64,000 bases of DNA, from NCBI GenBank assembly GCA_945946665.1, contig CAMEWO010000009.1:1-64000 (forward strand), given 5' to 3'. This document shows positions 9,515-62,107 of this stretch, one piece after another. Numbering within the stretch: position 1 is the stretch's first letter; each line of letters opens with the position of its first letter. The notes under the pieces are model-generated. The model saw only the letters and a list, made by a program, of their open reading frames with translations. It was not told the DNA's origin and searched no databases. Position numbers and translations under genes: made by a program. The DNA comes from an uncultured Eubacterium sp. (lineage in GTDB: Bacteria; Bacillota; Clostridia; Lachnospirales; Lachnospiraceae).

Positions 9515-10870
<1,356 letters not shown>

Positions 10871-33784: not shown

Positions 33785-33797
33785 TGAACTGAGTTCA
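33785..33797. promoter_or_regulatory. isolated copy of the par-region palindrome TGAACTGAGTTCA
   Basis: A 13-bp palindrome identical to those upstream of parA at 57951 and 58301, here 17 bases after the stop of the ABC exporter and 24 kb away from parA. Could be a remote ParB site. Confidence 0.45.
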
Positions 33798-42648: not shown

Positions 42649-44046
42649 ATGTTTAGAAAGTTAAAAAACAAATATATAGGGGATTCCAATTTCTACATTA
42701 TGGTTCTTGCTATGGTTGTACCTATGATCTTGCAAAATCTCGTAACTAATTTTGTAAGTATGTTGGACAATATAATGGTTGGACAGCTTGGAACAGAGCA
42801 AATGAATGGAGTTTCTATAGTTAATCAATTTATGTTTATATTTAATATATCAATATTTGGTGCTATATCGGGACCAGGTATATTTGGTGCGCAGTTTTTT
42901 GGAAAGGGCGACTATAAGGGTCAGAAACATACGGTACATTTCAGGATTGCGGTTGTTATTTTGCTTACAGTAATATTTGAAATAGTCTATTCTACTTTTG
43001 ATAGACAGCTTATTTCATTATACATATCAAAGGATGATGCCCCTGAATTAATCGAAGCTACATTACGGTATGGAAGAGAATACATGGGGGTTATGCTTGT
43101 TTCTATGTTACCATTTGCAATAGGACAGGCATATACAAGTGCTGTAAGAGAGTGCTGTGAAACGAGAATTCCATTATTTGCTTCGCTTTCAGCTGTGTTA
43201 ATTAATCTTTTCCTGGATTATGGTTTGATTTTTGGAAAATTTGGTCTACCTAATCTTGGTGTTACTGGTGCAGCATGGGCTACAGTTGTTGCTAAAACCA
43301 TTGAAGCCGGAGTAATTATAGTATGGGCTCATACTCATCTTGAAAGAAACAGGTATTTGATGAATTTCTTTAGAGATGTAAGAATTCCTGGGAAGCTATT
43401 TAAAGATATGGTAGTTAAAGGTACGCCGCTACTTATTAATGAGTTTTTCTGGGTTTTGGGAATGTCAGTAATAGCGCAGTGTTACTCTGTCAGAGGTCTT
43501 GATGTTGTTGGCGCACGTAATATTTCAAGTGTAATGAATAATCTATTTAATGTTGTATTCATTCAGATGGGTGCTGCAACAGCAATACTTTTAGGTAATA
43601 AGCTTGGCGCAGGCAAATTAAAGGAAGCAAAGGACATGTCAAACAAACTTATATTCTTTTCCGTAAGTACCAGTGCAGCACTTACATTTTGTATGATACC
43701 GTTGGCATATCTGTTTCCGATGCTGTACAATACATCTGAATATATCAGGTCTTTATCAACCTATATGATTATTGTTTTAGCATTTGCCATGCCTATGTTT
43801 GCATTTACTAATTCAGCATATTTTACACTTAGAAGTGGCGGTAAAACAGGTCTGACTTTCCTTTTAGATTTTATATTTACATGGATTATTCAGATTCCTG
43901 CAGCATTCATTCTGTGTTATAAGACTTCCATGGATTTCAGACTATTATTTGCAATAGTGACATATCTTGAAGTAATTAAGATTATTATAGGTACTGTACT
44001 TGTAAAGAGTAATCTATGGATACAGAATATAGTTGAGAAGGAGTAA
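42649..44046 (+). CDS. MATE family efflux transporter
   Basis: 465 residues, about twelve helices. VLAMVVPMILQNLVTNFVSM with LDNIMVGQLGTEQMNGVSIV is the MATE pattern. Third MATE gene in the window. AAAAGGA precedes the ATG. Its stop lies within the ribosome site of cysK, so the two are coupled. Confidence 0.88.
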   Translation: MFRKLKNKYIGDSNFYIMVLAMVVPMILQNLVTNFVSMLDNIMVGQLGTEQMNGVSIVNQFMFIFNISIFGAISGPGIFGAQFFGKGDYKGQKHTVHFRIAVVILLTVIFEIVYSTFDRQLISLYISKDDAPELIEATLRYGREYMGVMLVSMLPFAIGQAYTSAVRECCETRIPLFASLSAVLINLFLDYGLIFGKFGLPNLGVTGAAWATVVAKTIEAGVIIVWAHTHLERNRYLMNFFRDVRIPGKLFKDMVVKGTPLLINEFFWVLGMSVIAQCYSVRGLDVVGARNISSVMNNLFNVVFIQMGAATAILLGNKLGAGKLKEAKDMSNKLIFFSVSTSAALTFCMIPLAYLFPMLYNTSEYIRSLSTYMIIVLAFAMPMFAFTNSAYFTLRSGGKTGLTFLLDFIFTWIIQIPAAFILCYKTSMDFRLLFAIVTYLEVIKIIIGTVLVKSNLWIQNIVEKE

Positions 44047-44053
44047 TTTGGAT

Positions 44054-44983
44054 ATGATTTACAATAATATTCTTGAAGCTGTTGGACATACACCTATGGT
44101 TCGGCTTAATCATATGGCTGAGCCTGATAGTGCACAGATTCTGGTTAAGTTTGAGGCGGTTAATGTGGGTGGATCAATTAAGACAAGAACAGCTCTTAAT
44201 ATGATTGAAGCTGCAGAAAAAGAAGGTTTGCTTAACAAAGACAGCATTATTGTTGAACCAACAAGTGGTAATCAGGGAATTGGTCTTGCCCTGGTGGGAG
44301 CCGTTAAGGGATATAGGACGATTATAGTTATGCCTGATTCTGTAAGTGAAGAACGAAGGAAATTAGTCCGTCACTATGGGGCAGAAGTAAAGCTTATTCA
44401 TGATGCAGGGGACATAGGAGCATGTATTGAGGAATGTTTGCAGACAGCACTTAATATGCAAAAGAAAAATCCGAGAGTTTTTGTTCCTCAGCAGTTTGCC
44501 AATATGAACAATACTCTTGCTCATAAGAACCATACCGCTTTAGAGATAATGGAACAGGTAGCAGGTCCAATTCATGGATTTTGTTCTGGAATTGGAACAG
44601 GTGGAACAATCACTGGAATTGGTGAGGTCTTAAAAGCACAGAATCCTGACATTGAAATATGGGCTGTGGAGCCTGAGAATGCTGCAATTCTTGCAGGAGG
44701 AACGATTGGGACTCATATTCAGATGGGCATTGGAGACGGTGTTATTCCGGATATATTAAATCAGTCAATTTATGACAATATCTATATTATCACAGATGAG
44801 GAAGCCTTAAATGTTTCTAAGCGTTTGGCCAAAGAAGAAGGTCTTATGTGTGGTATTTCAAGTGGAACTAATGTTGCTGCCGCAATTAAGCTGGCTAAGA
44901 AGCTTGGACCAGGTAAAACGGTTGTTACAGTACTTCCTGATACAGCAGAAAGATATTATTCAACACAATTATTTGAAGAATAA
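44054..44983 (+). CDS. cysK: cysteine synthase (O-acetylserine sulfhydrylase), PLP-dependent
   Basis: About 309 residues. Forms L-cysteine from O-acetylserine and sulfide. HTPMVRLN, the PLP Lys in GGSIKTRTAL, SGNQGIGLALVGA (SGNTG in most), and GIGTGGTITGIGE phosphate-binding loop. The ATG at 44054 is 10 bases after AAGGAG; a TTG at 44048 is 4 bases after it and also possible. The Thr of the SGNTG loop being Gln may hint at another substrate within the family. Followed by a strong terminator. Confidence 0.88.
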   Translation: MIYNNILEAVGHTPMVRLNHMAEPDSAQILVKFEAVNVGGSIKTRTALNMIEAAEKEGLLNKDSIIVEPTSGNQGIGLALVGAVKGYRTIIVMPDSVSEERRKLVRHYGAEVKLIHDAGDIGACIEECLQTALNMQKKNPRVFVPQQFANMNNTLAHKNHTALEIMEQVAGPIHGFCSGIGTGGTITGIGEVLKAQNPDIEIWAVEPENAAILAGGTIGTHIQMGIGDGVIPDILNQSIYDNIYIITDEEALNVSKRLAKEEGLMCGISSGTNVAAAIKLAKKLGPGKTVVTVLPDTAERYYSTQLFEE

Positions 44984-45060: not shown

Positions 45061-46068
45061 TCAATTGTTTGTTTTTTCTATAAATGTTTCCAGCTGTTTC
45101 TTGGCAGCGCCGCTTTCAATAAGAATGCGGGCCTTAGCAATAGCATCTTCCATTGTGATATTATCTGATGCTATATAGATTGCAGCTCCTGCGTTGAGAA
45201 GAACTGCATCAAGCTTAGGACCAGGCTGGTCATTAAGGATATCAAGGGCAATCTTTGCATTTTCTTCTGGAGTGCCACCAACAAGGTCTTCCTTGGCACA
45301 TCTTGTAAATCCATATTGTTCAGGTGTGATTTCATATGTTTTGAAATTATCGCCCCTGAATTCACATACCTTAGTAGGTGCGCTTAAAGATATTTCATCA
45401 ATAGAATCTGTTCCATAAACAACCATTGCACGTTTAACTCCAAGATTGCGGAGAACATGGGCAAGAGGTTCAATAAGGTCTTCGGAATAAACTCCAAGAA
45501 GCTGCATATTGGCACCTGCCGGATTAGCAAGAGGTCCTAATATGTTAAACAGAGTTCTTATACCCATCTCTTTTCTTACACTGCCAACAAATCTCATGGC
45601 TGTGTGATATTTCTGTGCAAATAAAAAGCAGATGTCAATGTCCTTAAGAAGCTGTGCACTCAAAGCAGGAGCGATGTCAATCTTAACTCCCAGAGCTTCA
45701 AGGCAGTCTGCTGTTCCACATTTGCTTGAAGCTGCCCTGTTACCATGCTTTGCAACAGGAATTCCGGCTGCTGAAGCAACAATTGCAGATAATGTGGAAA
45801 TGTTAAATGTATTAGAACCATCTCCGCCAGTTCCTACAATCTCAAGAACATCCATGTCATTTAAGAATCTTTCACAGTGAGAACGCATAACCTTGGCAGC
45901 TGCTGTGATTTCGTCAATTGTTTCACCTTTCATTGCCAATGCTGTAAGAAAAGAGGCTTTCTGGGCATCTGTTGCCTCGTTTGTCATTATCTCTTCCATA
46001 ACAGCAGTCATCATTTCGGTTGTTAAATCATTTCTCTTTACAAGTAAACCTATGGCTTCCTTTATCAT
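45061..46068 (-). CDS. trpD: anthranilate phosphoribosyltransferase
   Basis: 335 residues, normal. Joins anthranilate and PRPP in tryptophan synthesis. [14 protein letters not shown] and [21 protein letters not shown] are the PRPP and anthranilate sites; [19 protein letters not shown] follows. GGAGG lies about ten bases before the ATG. No other trp gene is adjacent, so it stands apart from the usual trp operon. Confidence 0.94.
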
Positions 46069-46108
46069 TATGTGTTAACCTCCAATAGATAAATCTACAC
46101 TGTGTTCA

Positions 46109-47275
46109 TTATATTCTCCTCGCTGCATTTGTCAAGGTTTTGCAGCTAAAGACATCATCAAATATAAAGCTGTCATACAGGTCAGATATATTGTCTTCAG
46201 AGTACTCAATTTCTCTTGAAAAAATGTGTATTATATCCATTAAAATCTTTTTATCATCTTGATTAGAATCCCTTTCTTTCTTGAATATAAAAAGATCTTT
46301 GATTATAACAAGGTTAGATACAATAAGCTGTGCTTTGCCAGTCAGATTATGGTCAAAGGAAGCTTTCAGCATATACCTGTATACATAATATTTTGTAAGC
46401 CGTGTAAAATAAAGTTCAAGTAAATTATTGTCATAAGATGGACAACTGACCTCATCATTGTTTTCATACAGGTAACCATATGCATTACTGCTAAGCTCCT
46501 GCCATTTGTTGTTAAGAGGCTCCAGATCCAGGTATGCCCACCATATTTTCATGTTAATGTCTTTTATTACTTTATTGTCAGGTTTACTGTTACCATTTGA
46601 CGTGATTATACTTGTATTTGTATCCTGTTTTAATAAACTGGCTTTAATATCCTCTATCAGATCAATATCACTGCAGAATTTACGGATTTCATCATAGTCA
46701 TTACTATTAATCATATTCTGGAGATGATCAAACATATCAAGAATAACACAGAGTTTATCAGTTAATAATAAGCTGGTATCATCCAGCATTGCCATAATTT
46801 TATCCCGTAGAATAAACAGGGACTGTCCAAGACTGGAATCATATTCTCCCCATATTTCTTCTTCGTCGATATCAGTTTCTTCAAGTATGAAAGGAGTAGA
46901 ATCATTAAGAATAATTCTTGCAGCTTCCTCACATGCCATACCAATTCCCGTTTCTTTAATGTTGCCATAATACTCTGTAAATCGTGGAAATTGTGTACAT
47001 ACCAGTCCCATATGTTCGGGACCTAACTCTTTATAGATTTCGCAGAGATTATTATTAAGTAAAAACGGACATTGTCCATTATTAAGCTTAAAGCATCCAG
47101 CTTCTTTATCAACATACTTTTTTAGTCTATCCCCAAAATCCCCTTGTACTGTGTCATAATAATCAATGGTTTCTTCATCAATATCAATCTGCCATCCGCC
47201 AAAACAACAGTTGTCTATGCATTTATCAGCAATGCATGTAAAATGTTTATAATAGCCGGGTACTCTGAGCTTCAT
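46109..47275 (-). CDS. FliB-family (flagellin lysine-N-methylase) Cys-rich protein
   Basis: 388 residues. N-terminal cluster of cysteines (CIADKCIDNCCFGGW, later CPFL, LCEIY, LVCTQFPRF) identical in layout to FliB and its many clostridial relatives, which use a Cys-rich metal site. True FliB methylates lysines on flagellin. No flagellar gene is in this window, so substrate remains open. The gene ends 40 bases from trpD's start. Confidence 0.75.
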   Translation of the reverse strand: MKLRVPGYYKHFTCIADKCIDNCCFGGWQIDIDEETIDYYDTVQGDFGDRLKKYVDKEAGCFKLNNGQCPFLLNNNLCEIYKELGPEHMGLVCTQFPRFTEYYGNIKETGIGMACEEAARIILNDSTPFILEETDIDEEEIWGEYDSSLGQSLFILRDKIMAMLDDTSLLLTDKLCVILDMFDHLQNMINSNDYDEIRKFCSDIDLIEDIKASLLKQDTNTSIITSNGNSKPDNKVIKDINMKIWWAYLDLEPLNNKWQELSSNAYGYLYENNDEVSCPSYDNNLLELYFTRLTKYYVYRYMLKASFDHNLTGKAQLIVSNLVIIKDLFIFKKERDSNQDDKKILMDIIHIFSREIEYSEDNISDLYDSFIFDDVFSCKTLTNAARRI

Positions 47276-47314
47276 TGTTGCTCCTCCTGATTACTGAATG
47301 TATGTATTATTTCA

Positions 47315-47794
47315 TTAAATGTTGTCAATGGTTATATCTCCCGTTTTGTACGGAATTACTTTAGCAAGGTCTTTTAAATTCATCTCAACCTGATATCCAA
47401 TTTTTCCTGCGGAGAACATTATTGTATCATACTCTTCTGCTTCTTTCTGGAATGTTGTAGGAAACAGCTTTTTCATACCAATCGGTGAACAGCCACCGTG
47501 AATATATCCTGTAAGAGGCAGGAGATCCTTTGATTTAAGCATATCTATAGATTTCTCCCCAACAGCTTTTGCAGCTTTCTTAAGGTCAAGCTCAGCTTCC
47601 ACCGGAATTACAAATACATAATTCTTACCTGATTTTGCCACGGTAACAAGAGTTTTAAATACTCTGTCCGGATTCTGGTTGAGATACGCTGCCACCTCTG
47701 TTCCGCTTATTGCCTTGGAATTGTCATATGTGTGGGCAGTGTAGCTGATTTTCTTCTGGTCAAGAATCCTCATTACATTAGTTTTTTCTTCCAT
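47315..47794 (-). CDS. ybaK: Cys-tRNA(Pro) deacylase, YbaK/EbsC family
   Basis: 159 residues from the ATG at 47794. Trans-editing enzyme removing Cys from tRNA-Pro. TNVMRILDQKKISYTAHTY, FKTLVTVAKSGKNYVFVIPV, KKAAKAVGEKSIDML and GGCSPIGMKK are family hallmarks. The frame opens further up to an ATG at 47842, which includes AAAGGAGGAG as coding sequence; no start lies at the ideal distance from that site, so the start is uncertain. TTTGTCGGACAAA just before the ATG is a small palindrome. Confidence 0.88.
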   Translation of the reverse strand: MEEKTNVMRILDQKKISYTAHTYDNSKAISGTEVAAYLNQNPDRVFKTLVTVAKSGKNYVFVIPVEAELDLKKAAKAVGEKSIDMLKSKDLLPLTGYIHGGCSPIGMKKLFPTTFQKEAEEYDTIMFSAGKIGYQVEMNLKDLAKVIPYKTGDITIDNI

Positions 47795-47855
47795 ACATGT
47801 TTGTCCGACAAATGTATCAGACTCCTCCTTTATTAGTCTCATTAAGCTTATTTAA

Positions 47856-49409
47856 TCAAGCCCTTGTGGACCACTGGCTGCAATCCCAGACTTCAGTTGC
47901 CAGATCTTCGTAGAATTCCGGCTCATGGCAGACCATAAGAATACTGCCCTTATATTCCTTTAATGCCCGTTTAAGTTCTGCTTTGGCATCTACATCCAGG
48001 TGGTTGGTTGGTTCATCCAGAAGAAGAATATTGCTTTCTCTGTTAATAAGCTTGCACAGACGTACCTTTGCCTGTTCACCACCACTTAATACCTTTACCT
48101 TGCTTTCGATATGCTTGGTGGTAAGTCCACATTTAGCAAGAGCTGAACGTACTTCGTACTGGGTAAATCCAGGAAATTCCTGCCATATCTCTTCAAGACA
48201 GCTGGTGTTATTATCAGGAGGCATCTCCTGTTCAAAATATCCTATCTCAAGATAATCACCAAGTTCTACCTCACCGCTTAATGGTTTGATAAGTCCTAAT
48301 ATACTTTTAAGAAGTGTTGTCTTTCCAATACCATTAGCACCCTTTAATACAATCTTACTACCTCTTTCCATGCTTAGATTAAGAGGGCTTGAAAGTGGTT
48401 CCTCATATCCAATTACAAGGTCCTTAGTTGTAAATATGTATTTTCCGGAAGTTCTTGCATTCTTAAAATTAAATTCCGGCTTTGGTTTTTCACTGGCAAG
48501 TTCAATTATTTCCATGTTATCCAGTTTTTTCTGTCTTGACATTGCCATGTTCCTTGTGGCAACTCTGGCTTTGTTTCTGGCAACAAAGTCCTTAAGGTCA
48601 GCAATCTCCTTCTGTTGCCTGTTATAGGCAGCTTCCAGCTGGGATTTCTTCATGGCATATACTTCCTGGAATTTGTCATAGTCTCCGGGATATCTTACAA
48701 TCTGAAGATTTTCCACATGATAGATTACGTTGATTACACTGTTAAGGAATGGAATATCATGGGATATGAGTATAAATGCATTCTCATATTCAATGAGATA
48801 TCTTTTTAACCATTCAATATGTTCTACATCAAGATAATTAGTGGGCTCATCCAGAAGTAAAATGTCGGGTTTTTCTAATAAAAGCTTTCCCATTAACACT
48901 TTAGTTCTCTGGCCACCTGATAAATCTGTTACATCCTTCTCTAATCCAAGTTCTAACAAACCAAGTGCCCTTGCTACTTCTTCAACCTTTGAATCAATCA
49001 TGTAGAAATCATGCATTGTAAGGTTATCCTGAATTACTCCCAGCTCCTCCATCATTGAATTCATCTCTTCATCTGATGCACTTCCCAGTTTTTCGCATAT
49101 TTCATTCATATGCTGTTCCTGGATAAATAAATCATCAAAAGCGGATTTCAATACAGATTCAATTGTCATTCCCTTTTCCAGTACAGCGTGCTGGTCAAGG
49201 TATCCAACTTTCACATTCTTTGCCCATTCTATCTTTCCTTCATCAGGCATCATTTTTCCTGTGATAATCTGCATAAATGTAGATTTTCCTTCTCCGTTAA
49301 CTCCAATTAGACCTATTTTGTCTCCTTTATTCAGCTGAAATGATGCATTTTCAAATATAGCCCTGTCTCCAAAGCCATGGGATAATTTTTCAACAGTTAA
49401 TAAACTCAT
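47856..49409 (-). CDS. ABC-F family ATPase
   Basis: 517 residues, two ATPase domains and no membrane part. Walker A GVNGEGKST and GANGIGKTT, signatures LSGGQRTK and LSGGEQAK, Walker B LLLDEPTNYLD and LLLDEPTNHLD. The layout fits the YbiT/YkpA branch, ribosome-associated factors. Not obviously an antibiotic-resistance type. Eleven bases after hflX on the same strand, so likely one transcript. Confidence 0.92.
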   Translation of the reverse strand: MSLLTVEKLSHGFGDRAIFENASFQLNKGDKIGLIGVNGEGKSTFMQIITGKMMPDEGKIEWAKNVKVGYLDQHAVLEKGMTIESVLKSAFDDLFIQEQHMNEICEKLGSASDEEMNSMMEELGVIQDNLTMHDFYMIDSKVEEVARALGLLELGLEKDVTDLSGGQRTKVLMGKLLLEKPDILLLDEPTNYLDVEHIEWLKRYLIEYENAFILISHDIPFLNSVINVIYHVENLQIVRYPGDYDKFQEVYAMKKSQLEAAYNRQQKEIADLKDFVARNKARVATRNMAMSRQKKLDNMEIIELASEKPKPEFNFKNARTSGKYIFTTKDLVIGYEEPLSSPLNLSMERGSKIVLKGANGIGKTTLLKSILGLIKPLSGEVELGDYLEIGYFEQEMPPDNNTSCLEEIWQEFPGFTQYEVRSALAKCGLTTKHIESKVKVLSGGEQAKVRLCKLINRESNILLLDEPTNHLDVDAKAELKRALKEYKGSILMVCHEPEFYEDLATEVWDCSQWSTRA

Positions 49410-49420
49410 GTAAGGCTCCT

Positions 49421-50656
49421 TTATTGTAATTGATTGTAAACAGAACGTGGTACTTTTGCCTGAACTTCTATTCCCTGTTCTGTATATTCTTCTTTAATAA
49501 GCTGTCCATATTCACGGATAAGCTGTATCTTTCCTGCATCTTTATAAGAAAAGACTTTGTTCAGTTCTATTCTGTTTTCCATAATAATTTCCTGCAGCTT
49601 TTGCATAAATTCATCAAGACCATAACCAGTCCTTGCTGAAATCCGTATGGTTGCATCTGCATTTTCATCCTTTAATATATAGGTTCCATCTGTTATATCA
49701 CATTTGTTCAGAAGTGTAATAACGGGTTTATCCTCTACATTAAGGCTTTTTAGTGTTTCGTATACAGTTTTAATCTGATGCTCACAGTCCGGATTGCTGG
49801 CATCTACCACATGTACAAGGATGTCAGCGTATTTTGCCTCTTCAAGTGTACTTCTGAAAGCCTGGATGAGATGGTGTGGCAGCTTCCTGATAAATCCTAC
49901 TGTGTCAGTAAGCAGAACTTTCTCACCATTAGGAAGAACCTTTGAACGGGTGGTTGTGTCCAGAGTGGCAAACAGTTTATCTTCTGAAAGAACTCCTGCA
50001 TCTGACAGTTTGTTAAGAAGTGTTGATTTTCCGGCATTAGTGTATCCTACAATGGCCACAACAGGTGTGGTTGTGTTTACACGTCTTGCACGGAGTACAT
50101 TTCTATGGTTTTCAACTTCTTTAAGTTCATTTGAAAGCTTAGAAAGCCTGTCCTTGATAATTCGTCTGTCTGTTTCCAGTTTCTTTTCTCCAGGACCTCT
50201 TGTTCCAATACCGCCACCCAGACGGCTTAAGGTTGTTCCAAGACCTGCAAGTCTTGTCATTCTGTATTTTAACTGGGCCATCTCAACCTGAAGTTTACCT
50301 TCACTTGTGGAAGCTCTTGCAGCAAATATATCAAGAATTACCATGGTTCTGTCCATTACCTTGGTGTCAAGAATATCCTCAAGGTTTTTAAGCTGTGCAG
50401 GGCTTAATTCATCATCGCATATTATTCCGGTTGCATCCATCTGGTCTATCATTATCCTTGCTTCATCAAGTTTTCCTTTACCTATATATGTTGAAGGATG
50501 GGCATATTCTCTTGGCTGGATAATTCTTCCAACTGTTTCAGCTCCGGCGGTTCTTGCCAGTTCAGCAAGCTCATCAAGTGATTTTGCTGTATCATCATCT
50601 TCAAGCTGGACACCGATAAGAATAACTCTTTCTATTTCATTATCTGTATTATACAT
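49421..50656 (-). CDS. hflX: ribosome-associated GTPase HflX
   Basis: 411 residues. N-terminal HflX domain (TVGRIIQPREYAHPSTYIGK, GKLDEARIMI), linker helices with RGPGEKKLETDRRIIKDR, then a GTPase with GYTNAGKST, DTVGFIRKLPHHL and NKCD. It splits stalled ribosomes under stress. No promoter was clearly seen in the 43 bases before the recombinase gene; the two may be transcribed together. Confidence 0.93.
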   Translation of the reverse strand: MYNTDNEIERVILIGVQLEDDDTAKSLDELAELARTAGAETVGRIIQPREYAHPSTYIGKGKLDEARIMIDQMDATGIICDDELSPAQLKNLEDILDTKVMDRTMVILDIFAARASTSEGKLQVEMAQLKYRMTRLAGLGTTLSRLGGGIGTRGPGEKKLETDRRIIKDRLSKLSNELKEVENHRNVLRARRVNTTTPVVAIVGYTNAGKSTLLNKLSDAGVLSEDKLFATLDTTTRSKVLPNGEKVLLTDTVGFIRKLPHHLIQAFRSTLEEAKYADILVHVVDASNPDCEHQIKTVYETLKSLNVEDKPVITLLNKCDITDGTYILKDENADATIRISARTGYGLDEFMQKLQEIIMENRIELNKVFSYKDAGKIQLIREYGQLIKEEYTEQGIEVQAKVPRSVYNQLQ

Positions 50657-50699
50657 ATAAATCCTCTTTTCTATCTATTGCCATGGAGCTTAGGAGCGA

Positions 50700-51668
50700 T
50701 TACGTTGTTTTAATGGAAATTACGCTGTAATCTGCACTTGTAATATAGTTCCCCTCTGATACGACTCTTTCATATCTTGGAAGCCATTTTGATGTAATTC
50801 CGCAGTAAGCAGCTACTTCATCCTCAGAAAGCTTGCCCATGAGCATATATTTTATTGCTGCATGTCTAAGGGACTGCAGCGTGAATTCTTTCTTAATTAC
50901 TTTGTCATATATTCCCTGATCCACATAGCTTTTAAGTATCCTTTCCGCATCCCTTGGTTTAAGGTTAGTTCCTCTTTTGTTAAAGAAGATATACTCAGGG
51001 GTGCTGTCAACACATACAGTTATATTATCACGTTTTTTAAGATATTTCTTCATAATTTTGCTAACATCTGAAGGAAGTTTTATTATTCGTGAAACCTTCT
51101 TTGATTCCCTGATTTTAATGCATATTATTCCCTTCTTCTCTGTCATAATTGAATCATTGGTTATCCTGCAGATTTCAGATGTTGTGAGACCACATTTTAC
51201 CACTAGTGATAGTATGCACACAAATGTATCATCATTATTCTTTTTCCCCTTCTCAAATAAATAATTGATTTCTTCTTCCGTTGGAATCTCATCTTCAGAT
51301 AGCATCTTAGAACTGTCAGGAATGGTATAATCCCTGAAAAAGTTTGTATACACTTGACCTGCCATATTCTTTCTATGTTTTATGTAATCGCATAATGACT
51401 TCATTACGGATAATCTCATTATCGCAGTACTTCTTGATAATTTACCAGAATTCATTTTCGTTACCAGGTCATTAAAATATTTATCTGCATCAGAATGGGT
51501 CATCTCATCTGGAGTATGACCTGTAACTTTCACATATGCCTTTACAATATTATAGTAATTTTTTCTTGCTCTGTCTGAAAGATTTGCTGCAAAGAAATTC
51601 CAAATTGAATATAAAAATTCATCAGTTAATTCACTGTTGTTTTCTGATTTTGTCTGGTTTTTTTCCAA
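50700..51668 (-). CDS. tyrosine-recombinase-fold protein with degraded catalytic residues
   Basis: 322 residues. N-terminal SAM-like DNA-binding domain (about 15-105) and C-terminal integrase domain (125-310). Of the usual R-K-H-R-H/W-Y set, the first Arg is Thr (CGLTTSEICR, T162), the His of box II is Gln (LQSLRHAA, Q265), while R268 and a Tyr in RYERV (Y299) remain and the late His/Trp is not evident. It may have lost strand-exchange activity or act as a DNA-binding or topology factor. TTG start after GAGAGGA. Position beside the replication module suggests a former resolvase of that replicon. Confidence 0.7.
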   Translation of the reverse strand: MEKNQTKSENNSELTDEFLYSIWNFFAANLSDRARKNYYNIVKAYVKVTGHTPDEMTHSDADKYFNDLVTKMNSGKLSRSTAIMRLSVMKSLCDYIKHRKNMAGQVYTNFFRDYTIPDSSKMLSEDEIPTEEEINYLFEKGKKNNDDTFVCILSLVVKCGLTTSEICRITNDSIMTEKKGIICIKIRESKKVSRIIKLPSDVSKIMKKYLKKRDNITVCVDSTPEYIFFNKRGTNLKPRDAERILKSYVDQGIYDKVIKKEFTLQSLRHAAIKYMLMGKLSEDEVAAYCGITSKWLPRYERVVSEGNYITSADYSVISIKTT

Positions 51669-51843
51669 TGTTATTTCCTCTCATATAATTGATATAAAAT
51701 AGTTACTATTCTTTTACAAATCCATTAGATTATAACATACTATGACGACATATGTCTATATTCTCTCAAAAAGCCACCCCACCACCCCATCTCAAAAATT
51801 TCAAAAAAAGTAATTAAAAAGAAAATCTGGAATCTAATAGCGT

Positions 51844-51872
51844 TTGCATTCGGATTAAAATTTATTTATAAT
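51844..51872 (+). promoter_or_regulatory. promoter of the rep gene
   Basis: TTGCAT at 51844-51849, exactly 17 bp, TATAAT at 51867-51872, 33 bases before the ATG. Confidence 0.75.
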
Positions 51873-51904
51873 AGGGTTTAAAGATTTGGAAAGGCGTAAC
51901 GATA

Positions 51905-53293
51905 ATGGAACAATATTCAAGACAATTTATTGAAGAGCTGTCAAAGCACATAGACCCTGCTATTATTGATTTCTTTAACATGAAGCATGATCTGTTTAAA
52001 TTTCCGGCTTCCAATATTCCTGAATTAATTGATGAGACACTTATGGATTATCTGGAAGGAAAAACAAGCCGTGAGGATCTTGTGCCAATTATTAATAAAA
52101 TCAAGAAATCAAGGCTTCAGAAAAGGGCCAGATGGTATACTTCATACATTGATGATATTGAGCACCTTACTATAGATGATCCTAAACATCCTCTTGCTCA
52201 TGTTATCAATCTTGCACGCTCTCTTCCAATTGACCAGTATGCTATAATGTTTGGCAACAAGGAAATTGATGATATTATTGAGGATTACAAGCAGAAGGCA
52301 AAGGAATGGAAAGATAACTCCAACAGTCTGTTAATACTATTTCCTGGACTCTCTACATTTACTAACAAATCAATCTATAAGTCTCTCAAGAATGATTTGA
52401 TAATAAGTGCATGGAAATACATTGAGAATGAGCTTACCGGCAACATTGACTCTTATATGAGAATGTTCCCTGAACAGCTGTTGGACAAGCCACTCTTCTC
52501 TCCTTCTTCATTTACACTGATGATGGACCAGGCATCCAATAATCTGCTTAAAGAAATCATTACAGATGATGAAGGTACGGAGCTTCTTGAAGTCACAGTC
52601 AACAGTGGCAAGCTTACACCTCCAAAGTCTATGGATTCCAGTGATTTAAAGCTTGTCAATGCGTTCATATCAAGCATTAATATGCAGGAATTTTCAAAGG
52701 ACAAGTCAGTTGTCGTTGATCTTAATACCCTGGGTAAAGAGCTTGTGGACTACCATGTTGGCAAGAATGTAATCACTAAAATCACTAATTCCTGCCGCAA
52801 ACTTGTTGAGTACAATTTTTCTTACGAGGAAGAAGGCACTAAGCTGTTCTTCAACCTTTTTGATAATATAACAATCAAGGAGGATGCAGAAAGACCTTAC
52901 GCCATTGCCCAGTTTGGCGAGATTTTAAGTAACGCTATCATCCAGAAGAAGCTCATATCCATTACTTCTGCTTCCTATGATGTATTGCGTAACAATCTTT
53001 CCAAGATTATATGCTATGCCCTTAAACGTGAACAGATTGCTAACCAGGAGACACTTACCGGCGAGTACAGTTACACATATTTCCAGAAAATAGTCCGTTT
53101 TAAACTGACCAATAAAAAGAAAAATATGCAGCTTATACAGGAGAGCCTTCAGGAATTTGTTGATAACCGAATAGCAATTAAAAGCTTTGAGCTTACCAAC
53201 GGTGTGTTTATAATTCACTTTCTTCCTCTATCCCCTGCAGAAATTGAGGATCTGCATTTTGATAAAGCGAAAGCTCTTCCTGACCTTTCATGA
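51905..53293 (+). CDS. probable plasmid-type replication initiator
   Basis: 462 residues, soluble. The N-terminal half is helical; the C-terminal half (about 190-450) has alternating helix and beta segments (SFTLMMDQASNNLLKEIITD; VVVDLNTLGKELVDY; YAIAQFGEILSNAIIQKKLI) that look like tandem winged-helix domains of Rep proteins. I do not recognise a named family with certainty. Assignment rests on position: own strong promoter, terminator, then an iteron array and parAB. GGAAAGG lies 11 bases before the ATG. Confidence 0.55.
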   Translation: MEQYSRQFIEELSKHIDPAIIDFFNMKHDLFKFPASNIPELIDETLMDYLEGKTSREDLVPIINKIKKSRLQKRARWYTSYIDDIEHLTIDDPKHPLAHVINLARSLPIDQYAIMFGNKEIDDIIEDYKQKAKEWKDNSNSLLILFPGLSTFTNKSIYKSLKNDLIISAWKYIENELTGNIDSYMRMFPEQLLDKPLFSPSSFTLMMDQASNNLLKEIITDDEGTELLEVTVNSGKLTPPKSMDSSDLKLVNAFISSINMQEFSKDKSVVVDLNTLGKELVDYHVGKNVITKITNSCRKLVEYNFSYEEEGTKLFFNLFDNITIKEDAERPYAIAQFGEILSNAIIQKKLISITSASYDVLRNNLSKIICYALKREQIANQETLTGEYSYTYFQKIVRFKLTNKKKNMQLIQESLQEFVDNRIAIKSFELTNGVFIIHFLPLSPAEIEDLHFDKAKALPDLS

Positions 53294-53412
53294 TTATTCA
53301 GGAATTCAATATTATATTAGAATTCCAAGTAATCAAGGATTAAGTTTTATGTATGCTTCTACTTAAGATAATTATTGGATTATATGTCTACATTTTTTAT
53401 AATGATAGTTTG

Positions 53413-53447
53413 GAGATGTTGTCAAGAAATTGCAACATCTCTTTTTT
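53413..53447 (+). terminator. Rho-independent terminator after the rep gene
   Basis: GAGATGTTG (53413-53421) pairs with CAACATCTC (53433-53441), followed by six Ts. Confidence 0.9.
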
Positions 53448-53598
53448 ATTTTTCCTGTATTTATGCAGATTTTAGCATTTATTGTCGATATTTTTTTATA
53501 TTTAATTGTCATAAAATCTTGTAAGCCTTAATTTTACTGTATTTCTTTATATATAATTTTGCATCTTTTTCTTTTATGTATTTTTCTTTGAATTTTTT

Positions 53599-54045
53599 GT
53601 AGACACTTTTGGAGTAAATTATTATTAATTAGAATAAAAAAGTAGATAATTTTAGAGTAAAACTAAATTTTGTAGATAATTTGAGAGTAAAAATATAGAA
53701 TCTTTTGTAGAAAACAGGGTTTTATTATATCTTTTAGAATAGAAATAATATTATCTATAAATATTTTCTACATTTTTTCTTCTGTTTTTTTTTGAAAATG
53801 TCTACATTTTTGGCTTAAATAGTGGGGTTTTCTATAAAAATATGGATTTAAATATTTTCCCACAACAAGATGTAGATATAAAAAGAGTAAAATCCACAAA
53901 ATATGATTTTTGTAGAATTTGAAAATTTTTTACAAAAATTTCGTAGACATTTTTGGAGTAAAAATCCTATGTTTATCAAAAAATGTAGACATAAAAATGA
54001 AAAAATGTTCAATTTTTTTGATTTTGAAGATAAATATCGAGTAAA
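53599..54045 (+). repeat. six 20-bp iterons in an AT-rich region: candidate replication origin
   Basis: Direct repeats of the form GTAGAYA-N8-GAGTAAA begin at 53599, 53642, 53672, 53872, 53943 and 54026, each exactly 20 bases and all in the same orientation; the sixth starts GAAGA. Half-copies lie at 53801 (TCTACATTTTTGGCTTAAA) and 53984 (GTAGACATAAAA). The segment from 53450 to 54060 is extremely AT-rich. Iterons plus an adjacent initiator gene are the standard form of a theta-replicating plasmid origin. Confidence 0.75.
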
Positions 54046-54109
54046 ACTGTCCGTTTGATTTTTATAGCCAAAAAATGCTAAATTAGACGCTGGAAAGGTG
54101 GTGAGCCAG

Positions 54110-55300
54110 GTGGACAATTTTGCAAACATTGGCAAGGCTGTACTGTTACAATCTCTGGGTCTTCAGAGAAATTATTCTGAAGAAATTGAATCAACCATTG
54201 ATGTCACAGACTATGATAAACCAGCCTGCACTTCTTGTAAATATCATTCTATTATTAACAGCTTCAGTCCAGATTCTGAAGCTTATAAGAGCGCACTTGC
54301 CAGATGCAACAGCTGCCCTTACCGCTCTACCACTACAAAGACAATACATAAGAAAGTTTACCACAACGAATTGAACCGTTATGGTTATAAGCCTATGCTT
54401 AAATCTGTTGCCATTAAGCTTCTGCTTCTTCTGCATTTTTATCATCCAGACCAGTTTGGTGTTGTTAGCCAGCTTTCCTTTGACGATTGTGCAATGCAGC
54501 TTAATTGCAGTACCAGAACTATATATAACAATCTTAATATATTGGCTTCTTTCGGTTACATATCTTTTTCCAAGAATAATGCACATTACTTCAGTGTATG
54601 TCTTAATGATTATGAAAGCTACTACCTTCCTGCATCACAGGGAGGCAGAGGCTATATTGTTATGTCCAGTGAGCTGCTTAAACAGGTTATTTCCATTGAT
54701 AATCTTATGTCTTTGCGAATTCACTTGAGAGAACTGGTAGAACTGGATACACTTAATCTTAAGGGTCCTTTTACTGCGGTGAATAAGACATTTAAGGAGA
54801 TGAAGCTCTCTCTTCCATCCTACTGCAAGCCATGCATTATCAAGTCATGTGTAAAACATGAAACGGGTATATTTAATATAACTTTCAAGGAAAGTTCTGT
54901 CAGATTTGAAATCCTTGACAGATTTGATTCCAAAAAGCAGAAATCAATGCTATATGATACATATATTCTCATGTTTAATGACTTTTTGCATAGCTTTAAT
55001 TCTTCTGTTATCAGGGTGAATACAGAAAACTACATCCCGTCTGAATTCAGGGACTTCTTCACTCCTGAATTATCAGAAGATAAAAACTTCTGCCTTATGC
55101 ATGTTAAGGATTTTGAGATTGAAGATTTAGCCCAGCTTTCGATGCAGTACTCTTTCAATAATGTTGTTTCGGCACTAAGCAGTGTTTACCGGGATTACAT
55201 TCTGAAGGAAAAGGCTGTTAATAACCTTGGAGCCCTTCTTCGAACTATTATAATATCTAATATTAATAAGCGGTGTCTTCACCATGGAAATGCGGCTTAA
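54110..55300 (+). CDS. zinc-ribbon/winged-helix protein, probable replication or copy-control factor
   Basis: About 396 residues from GTG at 54110, which is 6 bases after AGGTGGTGA; a GTG at 54098 lies within the ribosome site itself. CTSCKYHS and CNSCPYR form two C-x2-C pairs of a zinc ribbon near residues 40-75. A helix-turn-helix follows (LSFDDCAMQLNCSTRTIYNN, then LNILASFGYI). The C-terminal 200 residues are unfamiliar, with several more Cys. It directly follows the iterons, so it may be the true initiator or a regulator. No family recognised. Confidence 0.55.
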   Translation: MDNFANIGKAVLLQSLGLQRNYSEEIESTIDVTDYDKPACTSCKYHSIINSFSPDSEAYKSALARCNSCPYRSTTTKTIHKKVYHNELNRYGYKPMLKSVAIKLLLLLHFYHPDQFGVVSQLSFDDCAMQLNCSTRTIYNNLNILASFGYISFSKNNAHYFSVCLNDYESYYLPASQGGRGYIVMSSELLKQVISIDNLMSLRIHLRELVELDTLNLKGPFTAVNKTFKEMKLSLPSYCKPCIIKSCVKHETGIFNITFKESSVRFEILDRFDSKKQKSMLYDTYILMFNDFLHSFNSSVIRVNTENYIPSEFRDFFTPELSEDKNFCLMHVKDFEIEDLAQLSMQYSFNNVVSALSSVYRDYILKEKAVNNLGALLRTIIISNINKRCLHHGNAA

Positions 55301-55899
55301 ACTTCTCTTTCCAGACTGTCAGGTTTTTTAATTAATTTTCTTACAGTCTTATTTGCGTGCCTATCACCCATTATTTTCCTGATTTTATCCTTTAATTATT
55401 CTAAATTTAATTTAGAGTTTTCCATATTCTTACTTAAATCTCTATGTATACATTATATTTCATATTATTATTTATTACTGCTAAAGTATTTTGATTATTA
55501 AAATATAGTTTTTATTATTCTTTTTGAAAGTTTTCAACCTATTTTTTCTCTTTTTCTACTATCTCGTGTATCTTTTCATCATTTACCAGTTTGAATTAAA
55601 CCTTTATTTGCTTTAAATCATCTGTCTTTGTTTTCTTTTCACTGGGTGTTATTAAGTTTTTTCCATCACAAAAGCAAAAAAGAAACGGCATCAAAATCCC
55701 ACAATCCTGATGGAATCTTGCTTTGCCGTTTCGTTATTTATCAATATCTGTTTTTTTAATCTGTTAAAAAATATGTCTTTATATTTTGCCCATATTTTAA
55801 TTTTTTTTATTTATTTGATAATTTAATCCTTTCAATGGATAAATCTCTTATATGGACAAATTTCGACGAAATTCTTATATATTGTAAAAATAATATAAT
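55301..55899. other. AT-rich intergenic region with the parAB terminator
   Basis: No gene seen. The one clear element is an inverted repeat GAAACGGCA (55682-55690) / TGCCGTTTC (55724-55732), with a T-run on the minus strand, about 170 bases after the parB stop; it should terminate the parAB transcript. Confidence 0.6.
55682..55732 (-). terminator. terminator of the parAB operon
   Basis: Nine-base-pair stem GAAACGGCA/TGCCGTTTC; read on the minus strand it ends in TTTTTT. Confidence 0.65.
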
Positions 55900-57096
55900 T
55901 TACAAATTTTCAAGAAGGTCATTCAATCTGTCTTTTAGTATCTGTACTCTTACTTTAAGATCCAGATCATTTTTAATGACTGATTTGTTGTTCTTTAATA
56001 TATCAAAATTATTCTCAAGAAGATTTAAAGCCTGTTCTGTCTTGGCAATAGAATTGATTCTTTTTAATTCTGAATCTGATATTGCTGTCTGTCGCTTCTC
56101 TTTCTCCTTCTGGGCCTGTTTAATTTTCTCAATATTATTTTCCAGCTTTGCCTTTTCTCTTTCAGCTCTGTTCTTTGCCTCTGTAATGAACTTAATCTCA
56201 TCTTCCAGAGCTTCTCTGCTCTTCTCAGCAGGGGCGTTGTTTTCCAGTTCTGCTATCCTTTTTTCAAGAAGCTTGACAGTATTTTCCTGGGATTTAATCT
56301 GGTTATTTGCCTCCTCCAGTTCTGACTTATATCTTTTTGCTTCTTTTTCTCTCTCTTCTGAAAGAGCTTTGATAGACTGATATTCAGCATTCTCAACTGT
56401 TCCATTTTTATTAATAAGCTCTAAGATACTTTTCTGTGCACCCTCATCCAGTTTACCGAATTTATCAGCCTGGTTTAAGTCAATGCCATTAGCGTTAAGA
56501 AGTTCACTTAACTCTGGAATCAGCTTTTCAGCTGTTGTATATTTTCTTGCCTGTCTTTCTGATATATTAAGCTGTTTTGCTATTTCAGCATTAATATTTT
56601 TGATTTCACCTTTTAGCTTCTTGGCTTCATAAAGTTCCTTAAGCCTTGAAATCTCCCATCTTTTCACTTCCATAGATGTTTCTCGTACATCATGGTTGGC
56701 AGATATAAGCATTATCTCCTCATCTATATCAGAGATATTGGATTTCTCTACTTTACAAGGAATTCCGGATGGAAACAGTTCCTTATATTCTTTGTCTGAC
56801 ATCATGCAGATTGCCCTGAAACGTCTCTCTCCTGAAACAAGACGGTATACGTCATTATCTGTGTCATATATTACTGACAGATTATGTCTTAAACCATTGA
56901 TTTTAATGCTTTCCATGAGGGCTTCTATTCCCTCCTGGGAATACATCTCATTCTTTGGGTTAGATTTTATCTTTGATTTATCAATGAACTGAAAATTGTA
57001 TTCCGCTTTTGCCTGGACTTCCTTAAGTTTATTTCCTCCGTCATTGTTTAATACGCCCTTACTGGTTATGCCTGCTCCAAAAGTCTTCTTTGCCAT
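55900..57096 (-). CDS. parB: ParB-family partition protein
   Basis: 398 residues. N-terminal ParB/CTPase-like domain with SKIKSNPKN (site-start), INGLRHNL and GERRFRA (box II); central helix-turn-helix AEIAKQLNISERQARKYTTA; then a long charged coiled coil (about 225-355) and a C-terminal helical end that probably dimerises. It should bind the centromere repeats upstream of parA and work with ParA in segregation. ATG directly abuts the parA stop, so translation is coupled. Longer than chromosomal Spo0J (about 280) because of the coiled coil, more like plasmid types. Confidence 0.88.
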   Translation of the reverse strand: MAKKTFGAGITSKGVLNNDGGNKLKEVQAKAEYNFQFIDKSKIKSNPKNEMYSQEGIEALMESIKINGLRHNLSVIYDTDNDVYRLVSGERRFRAICMMSDKEYKELFPSGIPCKVEKSNISDIDEEIMLISANHDVRETSMEVKRWEISRLKELYEAKKLKGEIKNINAEIAKQLNISERQARKYTTAEKLIPELSELLNANGIDLNQADKFGKLDEGAQKSILELINKNGTVENAEYQSIKALSEEREKEAKRYKSELEEANNQIKSQENTVKLLEKRIAELENNAPAEKSREALEDEIKFITEAKNRAEREKAKLENNIEKIKQAQKEKEKRQTAISDSELKRINSIAKTEQALNLLENNFDILKNNKSVIKNDLDLKVRVQILKDRLNDLLENL

Positions 57097-57924
57097 TTAT
57101 TTTTCCCCCTTCAGATATTTTGCCAGCTCCCTGAAATGCTTGTTATCCATTAATCCCAGATAATTTACAAGTTCTATGTAGTCCTGTGCTGCAGTACATC
57201 TTTTATCATATGTTAATAATGGTTCAAATGTTGTATTAGATTCACTTACTGATATACTGTTTCTGATTGATACAGGTAAGAATTTATCTTCAAACATATT
57301 CTCATAGCTTTCAAACATTTGTTTAAATAGTGTTGTTCTGCCTGCAACTCTTGTCATAAATATTCCGGCAAATTCTATTGATAACGAATATTTTGTATTA
57401 AGCTCTTCTATGGTGTCTAATAAAGACATTAATCCGTCATATGAGAAATTGTCTACCCCTATTGGTGTAATTATCTTGTCACTTGCACATATGGCACAGG
57501 TTGTAAGATATGATTTGAAAGGTGAATTATCAATTATGATGTAGTCATATTCATCCTTTAACAGTGATAAATTATTTCTTAAGCAAAGCTCTATATTCTT
57601 TTCTTTACTCTTGTCGTATATCTTGTAGATAAGAGTGTTCAGCTCTCTTGATGCAGATAATATTGATATGTTGTTATAATCTGTTGTTGATATATATTCC
57701 AGTACACTCTCTTTATCTTCCATCCTTGAACAGAATATCTGTTCGTAATTAACATCCTTGATATTGTCAACATTGCTGAACATTTTTGTAGTGTTCATCT
57801 GGGGATCAAGGTCAATTAACAGTATGTTATAACCTGAAATTGCCAGTATCTGTGATATTGTAATGGCTGATGTGGATTTTCCTACACCACCTTTTTCATT
57901 AATTAAACTAATAATTTCTGACAT
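57097..57924 (-). CDS. parA: ParA-family partition ATPase
   Basis: 275 residues from the ATG at 57924, which has GAAAGGAT before it. Deviant Walker A KGGVGKST, LLIDLDPQMNTT and DYIIIDNSPF are the MinD/ParA motifs. Drives movement of ParB-bound DNA along the nucleoid. An in-frame ATG at 57978 would add 18 residues but the palindrome TGAACTGAGTTCA at 57951-57963 lies there, more likely an operator/centromere copy in the leader. No N-terminal HTH, so type Ib-like by length. Confidence 0.9.
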   Translation of the reverse strand: MSEIISLINEKGGVGKSTSAITISQILAISGYNILLIDLDPQMNTTKMFSNVDNIKDVNYEQIFCSRMEDKESVLEYISTTDYNNISILSASRELNTLIYKIYDKSKEKNIELCLRNNLSLLKDEYDYIIIDNSPFKSYLTTCAICASDKIITPIGVDNFSYDGLMSLLDTIEELNTKYSLSIEFAGIFMTRVAGRTTLFKQMFESYENMFEDKFLPVSIRNSISVSESNTTFEPLLTYDKRCTAAQDYIELVNYLGLMDNKHFRELAKYLKGEK

Positions 57925-57950
57925 AGTAATCCTTTCATTATGCTTTGGTT

Positions 57951-58657
57951 TTGAACTGAGTTCATTTTTACAGTTCATTGTACAACTATTATTTATTATA
58001 CAGATTATTAATTTTATTTCAATAGAAAATTCAATTAATTATTACAAAATGAGATGCTTCTTGAATTATTTCGTTTTTTGAACTCAGTTCACTTTACTGT
58101 AATGCAAGTTTTGTTAGGTTTGAACTCAGTTCACTTTACTGTAGTGCAAGTTCTGTTAGGTTTGAACTCAGTTCACTTTACTATAATGCAAATCCTGTTA
58201 ACTATGAACTCAGTTCACGTTGCAGCAATGCAACTCCTGAATATATAAAATGAGAAAAAATACTCATAGAAGAATTGAAAATCACATATTATATATTATA
58301 TGAACTGAGTTCAATATTTAGAAGTTTTATATGAAGAATAGAAAAATGAGAAAGAAAAAAATAGTTATGAGAAATCTCATCATATATTTATTCATTAACA
58401 AGGTAGAAAAAAGATTATATATATAAAATAAAAACCAGAATAGAAAAATAACATATAAAACACATAATATAGAATAGGGTAATTATCTTAAAAAATTTTA
58501 TAAGAATGTAACACAGACAGAATATGGAAATAAGTATTATTAAATAGAAATTAGAATATATATACATTGAACTATAAGATACAAAAATTGAATGAAATAA
58601 TATATAAACAGTAAAGTATTATATATAAAAGATTGGAAAAAATGTGAACTGAGTGCA
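57951..58657. repeat. partition centromere: TGAACTSAGTTCA palindromes including four tandem 42-bp repeats
   Basis: The 13-bp palindrome TGAACTCAGTTCA occurs at 58079, 58121, 58163 and 58205, always 42 bases apart, with the intervening sequence (CTTTACTGTAATGCAAG core) also repeated and decaying in the last unit. Further copies, as TGAACTGAGTTCA, lie at 57951 (in the parA leader) and 58301, and one with a mismatch (GAGTGCA) at 58645. Regular 42-bp spacing equals four helical turns. This is the expected shape of a ParB-binding site and parA operator. The remaining sequence from 58320 to 58800 is very AT-rich without genes. Confidence 0.75.
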
Positions 58658-58801
58658 AATAATAAAATGAAATCACATGTAATCAGAAAAAAAATAAAGC
58701 TTTAATGTAAGATTGAATATCATCTTGACAATATATCCAAATAATATTTTAATAAATACAGCAGATTAATTAAAAATAATGAAATGCAAGAACATATGTA
58801 T

Positions 58802-58827
58802 CAAAATGTTCCACGTGGAACATTTTG
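58802..58827. promoter_or_regulatory. parS-like site, 26-bp perfect palindrome
   Basis: The core TGTTCCACGTGGAACA at 58807-58822 matches the chromosomal parS form TGTTNCACGTGNAACA bound by Spo0J/ParB. The symmetry extends over 26 bases. It lies at the edge of the par region, 70 bases before the amidase gene. Confidence 0.7.
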
Positions 58828-62003: not shown

Positions 62004-62011
62004 AACTATTT

Positions 62012-62107
62012 CATAAAATGTGATGGAAATGCAAATTATGGCTCATAAAATGTGAGAAAAAGATAAATTATGGCTCATAAAATGTGATTAAATACATTAA
62101 TTATGCT
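62012..62107 (+). repeat. three tandem 32-bp direct repeats
   Basis: CATAAAATGTGA recurs at 62012, 62044 and 62076, each 32 bases after the last, with AATTATGGCT or AATTATGCT near the end of each unit. A decayed fourth unit may follow near 62120. They lie between the scar gene and the lipoprotein gene. Confidence 0.7.

Follow-up and report, generated by a model that had tools for sequence, protein, structure and literature searches.

A well supported chromid origin in the gut-bacterial genus Lachnospira, with base composition that suggests one-way replication

Introduction

Chromids are defined in PMC5716241 as separate replicons, smaller than the chromosome, that join plasmid-type replication and maintenance to a chromosome-like G+C content and to core genes otherwise found on chromosomes; in the Lachnospiraceae, the same source gives this name to Butyrivibrio replicons of 92 and 186 kb. 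Unidirectional chromids have been described in Pseudoalteromonas, where the skew has one sign and the terminus adjoins the origin, and Xie et al. (2021, PMC7858055) infer that the unidirectional state came first in that genus. The same authors predicted 77 unidirectional cases among 16,103 replicons larger than 200 kb, with 2,304 unpredictable. Here we analyze a 64,000-nucleotide stretch from an uncultured Eubacterium sp. (hereafter the window), which represents bases 1 to 64,000 of the 77,525-bp contig C9 in a 2.45-Mb genome of 48 contigs (G000). Its replication and partition module, at 50700..58827, had been proposed as a candidate chromid origin in an earlier note made from the sequence.

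The module resembles that of the pEubeli2-type replicon of Lachnospira eligens (NC_012780.1, NZ_CP085937.1) in its five genes, their order and the iterons, and in having gltX and mnmA on the recombinase side. In contrast, the window comes from another species, its Rep2 and recombinase share only 48% and 40% identity with those of pEubeli2, and its chromid carries eno. In titles and abstracts, the level at which the literature was searched (PMC9877435, which contains both 'chromid' and 'eligens', included), neither term, chromid or unidirectional, was seen applied to this replicon; pEubeli2 may already be among the unnamed Firmicutes cases of Xie et al. (PMC7858055).

Results

A replication and partition module conserved across Lachnospira

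The earlier note had placed a recombinase, two rep genes, iterons, parB, parA and two kinds of centromere in this interval, and all these parts were found:

50700..51668, - strand: tyrosine recombinase (Phage_integrase PF00589, 6e-15)
51729..51758, - strand: promoter-like site of the recombinase (11/12 promoter match), its -35 overlapping TGACGACATATGTC
51743-51756: conserved palindromic element TGACGACATATGTC, between recombinase and rep1
51905..53293, + strand: Rep1, conserved replication protein with no convincing family match
53413..53453, + strand: intrinsic-terminator-like hairpin 3' of rep1, GAGATGTTG...CAACATCTC then a T-run, read by eye
53598..54045, + strand: origin tract, six direct iterons within the 807-bp gap (78% AT) between rep1 and rep2
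54098..55300, + strand: Rep2, predicted iteron initiator of RepE/pi/RctB fold with an N-terminal CxxC...CxxC
55900..57096, - strand: ParB-like centromere-binding protein (phrog_4715, 5.7e-25; 72% identity to pEubeli2 ParB)
57097..57978, - strand: ParA ATPase (PF13614, 3e-39; phrog_164, 1.5e-55)
57952..58313, no strand: chromid parS array of six TGAACTSAGTTCA palindromes; a 42-bp tandem repeat holds four
58807..58822, no strand: chromosome-type (Spo0J) parS TGTTCCACGTGGAACA, with five exact matches genome-wide, this one included

Wherever its parts were found, the module keeps one order: recombinase (-), rep1 (+), gap, rep2 (+), parB (-) and parA (-). Among 16 modules, the window included, the recombinase was present in 15, rep2 in 14 and parAB in 11; most missing parts are explained by cut contigs or flanks, the exception being L151, where the sequence is present and the recombinase was not found. 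Each of 14 rep1-rep2 gaps holds 2-7 strict iterons, always in the same orientation. Judged by this conservation of gene order and iterons across other Lachnospira, the module is confirmed as more than a chance assembly. Rep1 was found in 16/22 Lachnospira genomes and in 13/13 of the high-quality ones, and a family-wide draw of 396 genomes (at least 90% complete) contained it in nine (three Lachnospira, one marginal). We conclude that this module controls the replication and partition of a second chromosome that occurs across the genus.

The replicon carries core genes

Orthology ties the module to its counterpart on a circular replicon (626,744 bp) in L. eligens ATCC 27750, which bears out the proposal of a chromid origin. 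The earlier note had also mentioned the large second replicon of L. eligens; the connection holds at the level of the module, the window itself belonging to another Lachnospira species. Amino acid identities to the L. eligens replicon proteins are 80% for Rep1, 48% for Rep2, 78% for ParA and 72% for ParB. When plasmids were searched with tblastn, Rep1 and Rep2 were recovered on both L. eligens records (80%, 48%) and, at 21-28% identity, in Bacilli (Rep1 and Rep2) and Clostridioides (Rep2).

Five housekeeping genes read in the window by the earlier note are each supported by Pfam or orthology:

9575-10870, + strand: eno, core gene on C9
18944-20620, + strand: gltX, core gene on C9
24363-25436: mnmA
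44033-44983: PALP (cysK-type) protein
45061-46068: trpD-type protein

Of 57 open reading frames in the window, 17 have a match above 45% identity on the L. eligens replicon; for the chromosome, of which 400 of 2,144 kb were compared, the number is three. The annotation of that replicon includes gltX, mnmA, aspS, thrS, infC-rpmI-rplT and carAB, among others. A single rplT was found in 21/22 genomes, the remaining one, 78% complete, showing none; the L. eligens gene lies on the chromid, without a second copy. The only strong gltX match in L. eligens is likewise on the chromid, the chromosome holding a distant 29% match. In the drafts, gltX shares a contig with Rep1 in G000, G001, G014, G017 and G019 and is on a separate contig in 11 other Rep1-positive ones. 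In G000 itself, a search for second copies returned a single enolase match; gltX had a single strong match and a distant one (26%, on C1).

An ordinary accessory megaplasmid would account for the L. eligens replicon being recorded and typed as a plasmid. We regard this as highly improbable, given that L. eligens has rplT and a strong gltX match nowhere but on this replicon, that aspS, thrS, infC and rpmI are annotated on it, and that Rep1 occurs genus-wide. The features of a chromid were found together: plasmid-type replication and maintenance genes in the module; core genes, known here from gene content, in rplT and gltX with their sole location on the L. eligens replicon; a G+C content of 36.8%, compared with 37.2% in the 400 kb sampled from the 2,144-kb chromosome; and, in L. 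eligens, a closed circle of 626,744 bp beside a chromosome of 2,144,190 bp. The dinucleotide distance between chromid and chromosome was 28.8, and that between chromosome halves 25.5.

In the species of the window, the module could instead lie within the main chromosome, since C9 carries eno, which is chromosomal in L. eligens, and is not a closed contig. This is very unlikely: gltX, mnmA and eleven more non-module genes match the L. eligens chromid at more than 45% identity, in a comparison that took in 400 of 2,144 kb of the chromosome, dnaA (on C33, as found when the earlier note's check for it on another contig was made) and soj/spo0J sit on contigs other than C9, and the eno of G016 keeps three of the neighbours of the window's eno. 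We infer that C9 belongs to a separate circle in G000, and the chromid origin is well supported. Because eno is chromosomal in L. eligens and on C9 in G000, this core gene, as its placement indicates, has changed replicon. At the DNA level, identity between the window's eno and that of the near relative G016 (L180) is about 92% over one part and 77% over another, which suggests a mosaic.

Rep2 is the better candidate initiator

The earlier note took rep1 for the probable initiator. The predicted fold makes Rep2, rather than Rep1, the better candidate for binding the iterons: a two-winged-helix fold is predicted for Rep2 and direct iterons lie beside its gene, as with RepE, pi and RctB of mini-F, R6K and Vibrio chromosome 2. 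Unlike these, Rep2 has its own cysteine motif, shares 6-13% identity with them and matches no Pfam initiator profile (weak helix-turn-helix matches only); its C-terminal 120 residues, mostly helical, are outside the match, and a second conserved protein, Rep1, is encoded alongside. As no known initiator profile was matched, we file Rep2 as a fold-alike, not as a family member.

Rep1 had 0 matches in PHROGs or NCBIfam, and its structure model was too poor for use (predicted local distance difference test score, pLDDT, 51.6). A Pfam match to T6SS_HCP (18.4 bits, cut-off 23.5) was taken as spurious. Rep1 is 17-25% identical to nine aligned Bacilli plasmid proteins. Searches of PDB sequences with Rep1 and Rep2 profiles (E up to 1) gave weak matches only, taken as unrelated, and no relative of either protein was confirmed in scans of viral contigs. 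The earlier note gave rep1 its own promoter and terminator: the terminator-like hairpin is present, with a loop exceeding the limit of our pattern scan and thus not among that scan's results, and the promoter is unproven, the scan of the region finding 24 sites, compared with 20.9 +/- 5.1 in shuffles.

The iterons, TGTAGAYAN6GAGTAAA, start at 53598, 53641, 53671, 53871, 53942 and 54025, the last copy being weak, and half-iterons in inverted orientation lie at 53766 and 53798. The rest of the window holds no iteron of 9 bits or more, and the strict pattern read backwards had 0 matches in 10 whole genomes. DnaA-box-like sites, sought by pattern, occur in 7/14 gaps, and the window's gap has none. 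The L. eligens chromosome contains no exact copy of TGACGACATATGTC or of a strict iteron, which were sought there as a crtS-like trigger site. NC_012780.1 carries two lone strict iterons far from the origin, at 103506 and 467366, whose sequences recur in G014 on other contigs; these are possible titration or regulatory sites.

Synonymous-site skew points to one-way replication

The earlier note proposed checking for a skew minimum at about 53.6-54.0 kb. Raw skew shifts at about 45 and 58 kb instead; these shifts track gene orientation, and synonymous-site skew is unchanged there. We attribute the missing minimum to a replicon that looks unidirectionally replicated. The contribution of replication was separated from that of transcription at four-fold degenerate sites, by gene strand. 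One group of genes illustrates the separation:

45061..51668, - strand: six leftward genes beside the origin, which the inferred rightward fork would meet head-on

Their whole-gene GC skew is -0.124, and their synonymous-site skew is +0.173, in agreement with the sign of the rest.

On the L. eligens chromosome, the synonymous skew flips sign between 1.01 and 1.10 Mb in both gene classes, except for the rightward genes of two stretches, at 1 and 330 kb. On its chromid, 20/20 pooled bins have one sign, both ends at the origin included, and the FDAARGOS_1570 assembly agrees in 12/12 sampled stretches (240 of 629 kb). The one-sign skew was established over the whole circle in L. eligens and in the flanks of the module in other species. 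L. eligens genes left of rep1 resemble chromosomal lagging-strand genes (p 0.29) and differ from leading-strand ones (p 5e-10). For the left-flank genes of ten further species (n=95), set against the L. eligens chromosome, the corresponding values were p 0.025 and 2e-28, and for those of the multipara clade (n=38), set against contigs C1 and C2 of G004, taken as chromosomal, 0.5 and 1e-5. A pool of 68 left-flank genes includes 15 of G002-G004, which the later comparison separates; G011 yielded no left-flank head-on gene. Within single chromids, left-flank head-on and right-flank rightward genes differ in 6/8 testable species (p at most 0.016; G004, p 0.16, and G020, p 0.095, show no significant contrast), and left- and right-flank head-on genes do not differ at synonymous sites in 6/6 testable species. 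We had also considered a positive left-flank synonymous skew as a sign test in every species, and dropped it as invalid for G002-G004.

Could the chromid be replicated in both directions from the same locus, the one-sign skew being due to transcription, codon bias or recent rearrangement? The majority of genes share one direction, raw skew reverses beside the module (at 290-329 kb in pEubeli2, whose GC skew of about -0.2 almost throughout, weaker in a few 10-kb bins, becomes near zero or positive there; at 45-58 kb in the window), gene strand dominates the synonymous skew of the multipara clade, and the left-flank whole-gene skew is intermediate. We nevertheless consider this unlikely, since synonymous sites on the L. 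eligens chromid have one sign for both gene orientations, by a measure that does reverse on the chromosome, and since the pooled skew stays positive across about 100 kb left of rep1 in G019 (+0.195) and G014 (+0.208), even though one G014 stretch is near zero. One-way replication is the simplest reading of the composition.

Within that reading, two forks may start, the leftward one being halted at once by a barrier on the origin side. Skew cannot tell a blocked leftward fork from a single fork, the intermediate left-flank whole-gene skew would fit occasional fork escape, and for Pseudoalteromonas, Xie et al. (2021, PMC7858055) likewise do not decide between the two. On the other side, the search for a barrier took in conserved motifs, and no dif-like site was identified on the chromid in a scan with a B. 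subtilis consensus (best match, 7/28 mismatches). We take the blocked fork to be a tangible possibility, if not the one that we favor.

Two kinds of parS lie side by side

The first TGAACTSAGTTCA of the array is inside the 5' end of parA, and 2 to 8 exact copies are found around or upstream of the parA start in 11/11 modules reaching there. ParB scores 24.3 bits against PF02195, slightly under the cut-off of 26.3. A single TGAACTGAGTTCA palindrome lies 24 kb away from the array, at 33785-33797. Exact searches of 10 whole genomes located the other four TGTTCCACGTGGAACA sites of G000 on C38, beside soj/spo0J. A Spo0J-type site with at most one mismatch follows the array in 9/11 modules, being exact in 4 of these. 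L. eligens has no exact TGTTCCACGTGGAACA; the one-mismatch form TGTTTCATGTGAAACA has three copies on its chromosome (2.133-2.135 Mb) and one on its chromid. In G000 and L. eligens, the chromid's Spo0J-type parS matches that of the host chromosome; near L150 and L151, no such site was found. The site itself suggests that chromosomal ParB (Spo0J), with SMC, may act on the chromid origin.

The recombinase and its upstream region

The recombinase is a putative dimer resolvase of the chromid. XerA, XerD and XerC profiles match it far under their cut-offs, and 14 other modules have a recombinase at the same place, 35-53% identical to the window's. The palindrome TGACGACATATGTC is exact in 11/15 aligned intergenic regions and differs at one or two positions in the remaining 4; G000 holds one further exact copy, at C4:66338. 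An Rfam search of 50-59 kb gave 0 matches at gathering score. Outside the module, the window contains a 32-bp tandem repeat of 2.5 copies (62011-62092).

Relatives and the direction of change

Like Lachnospira, Bacilli megaplasmids such as Paenibacillus polymyxa pSC2 carry Rep1. A Rep2 relative adjoins it in tandem in Virgibacillus, P. thiaminolyticus and Priestia koreensis and divergently in Aneurinibacillus. Unlike in Lachnospira, skew flips at rep in 4/7 of those sampled, the five Rep2 examined lack the CxxC pair, and some of these replicons have recA or phoH as neighbours. Butyrivibrio is absent from the 17 plasmid records matched by Rep1.

Synonymous skew flips at rep in P. polymyxa pSC2, Niallia, Aneurinibacillus, P. 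thiaminolyticus and the Lachnospiraceae genomes G313 and G373, so that 6/10 sampled relatives outside Lachnospira look bidirectional from the rep locus, as far as composition tells. Flank pools comprised 1 to 5 stretches per side; other stretches of W01, W02 and W04-W07, mostly far from rep, were left out of them, and G310 and G398 (contigs of 12-14 kb), W03, W09 and W10 out of the skew sample. A Rep2 relative was confirmed in Aneurinibacillus, P. thiaminolyticus, G313 and G373 and not in pSC2 or Niallia; in G170, the Rep1 profile alone matched. That match (G170:C22:786924-788333), on a contig of 962 kb in a Lachnospiraceae genome of 7.4 Mb, comes without a skew reversal and is perhaps an integrated or inactive copy.

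In the Rep2 tree, Lachnospira groups with G313 and G373 in a supported clade of Lachnospiraceae, Bacilli lying outside it. Together with the skews, this weakly suggests a change from two-way to one-way replication. The Rep1 tree contradicts it by placing G313 and G373 with Bacilli, and we lowered our rating of a derived one-way state for this reason; both trees have long branches and midpoint roots. That this is a single-replichore second chromosome, derived from a two-way ancestor with the same Rep origin and co-managed by Spo0J and SMC through a captured parS, is a tentative proposal, which we doubt more than we believe.

Discussion

Our model starts from computational results: the parts of the module, their order and conservation, the core genes located solely on the L. 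eligens replicon, its one-sign synonymous skew and the fold predicted for Rep2. We think it probable that the locus joins a vertically inherited chromid origin and centromere, Rep2 acting on iterons, a single rightward fork and a dual parS. In this model, the locus would be the origin and centromere of a chromid passed down vertically in Lachnospira. Rep2 would bind the direct iterons between rep1 and rep2 through its predicted two-winged-helix fold, open the AT-rich tract and load the replisome, with Rep1 as its likely partner or regulator. One productive fork would exit rightward through rep2, parBA and parS, travel round the circle and end on the recombinase side of rep1, so that the terminus would adjoin the origin, where the recombinase may resolve dimers. 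ParA and ParB would segregate the origin via the TGAACTSAGTTCA array, and the adjoining Spo0J-type parS may bring chromosomal ParB and SMC to it.

Several observations weigh against this model. C9 is not closed, and the chromosome-type parS is absent near two of the 11 modules checked, L150 and L151. One-way copying is read here from base composition, and a skew of one sign does not by itself place the origin. With the L. eligens chromosome as baseline, the left-flank genes of ten pooled species differ from lagging-strand genes in whole-gene skew (0.074 vs -0.013, p 7e-6) and, at the p 0.025 given above, in synonymous skew, and those of L. eligens also differ in whole-gene skew (p 7e-5). As the left-flank genes are not wholly lagging-like, the chromid may also have a minor leftward fork. 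In G002-G004 (the multipara clade), synonymous skew tracks gene strand, which invalidates the sign test, and right-flank pooled skew is negative in 3/11 species with data: G002, G004 and G011 (31 sites). Finally, four sampled relatives have no flip at rep: Virgibacillus, Priestia, Pontibacillus and G170 (W01, W06, W07, G170).

Unidirectional chromids are already known from Pseudoalteromonas; what differs here is the phylum, the initiator, the possible polarity of the change and the dual parS. The trajectory proposed for Pseudoalteromonas is opposite to a one-way state derived from a two-way one, several Lachnospira relatives with Rep1 look bidirectional, and the one-way state in Lachnospira is read from composition, with no dif identified.

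Core genes on a single-fork replicon are rare by the counts of Xie et al. (PMC7858055). A gut-bacterial genus with a seemingly one-way chromid and bidirectional-looking Rep1 relatives offers a natural comparison between one fork loaded and one fork blocked. The chromosomal parS beside the plasmid parS suggests, in turn, a concrete route by which a plasmid may come under chromosomal segregation.

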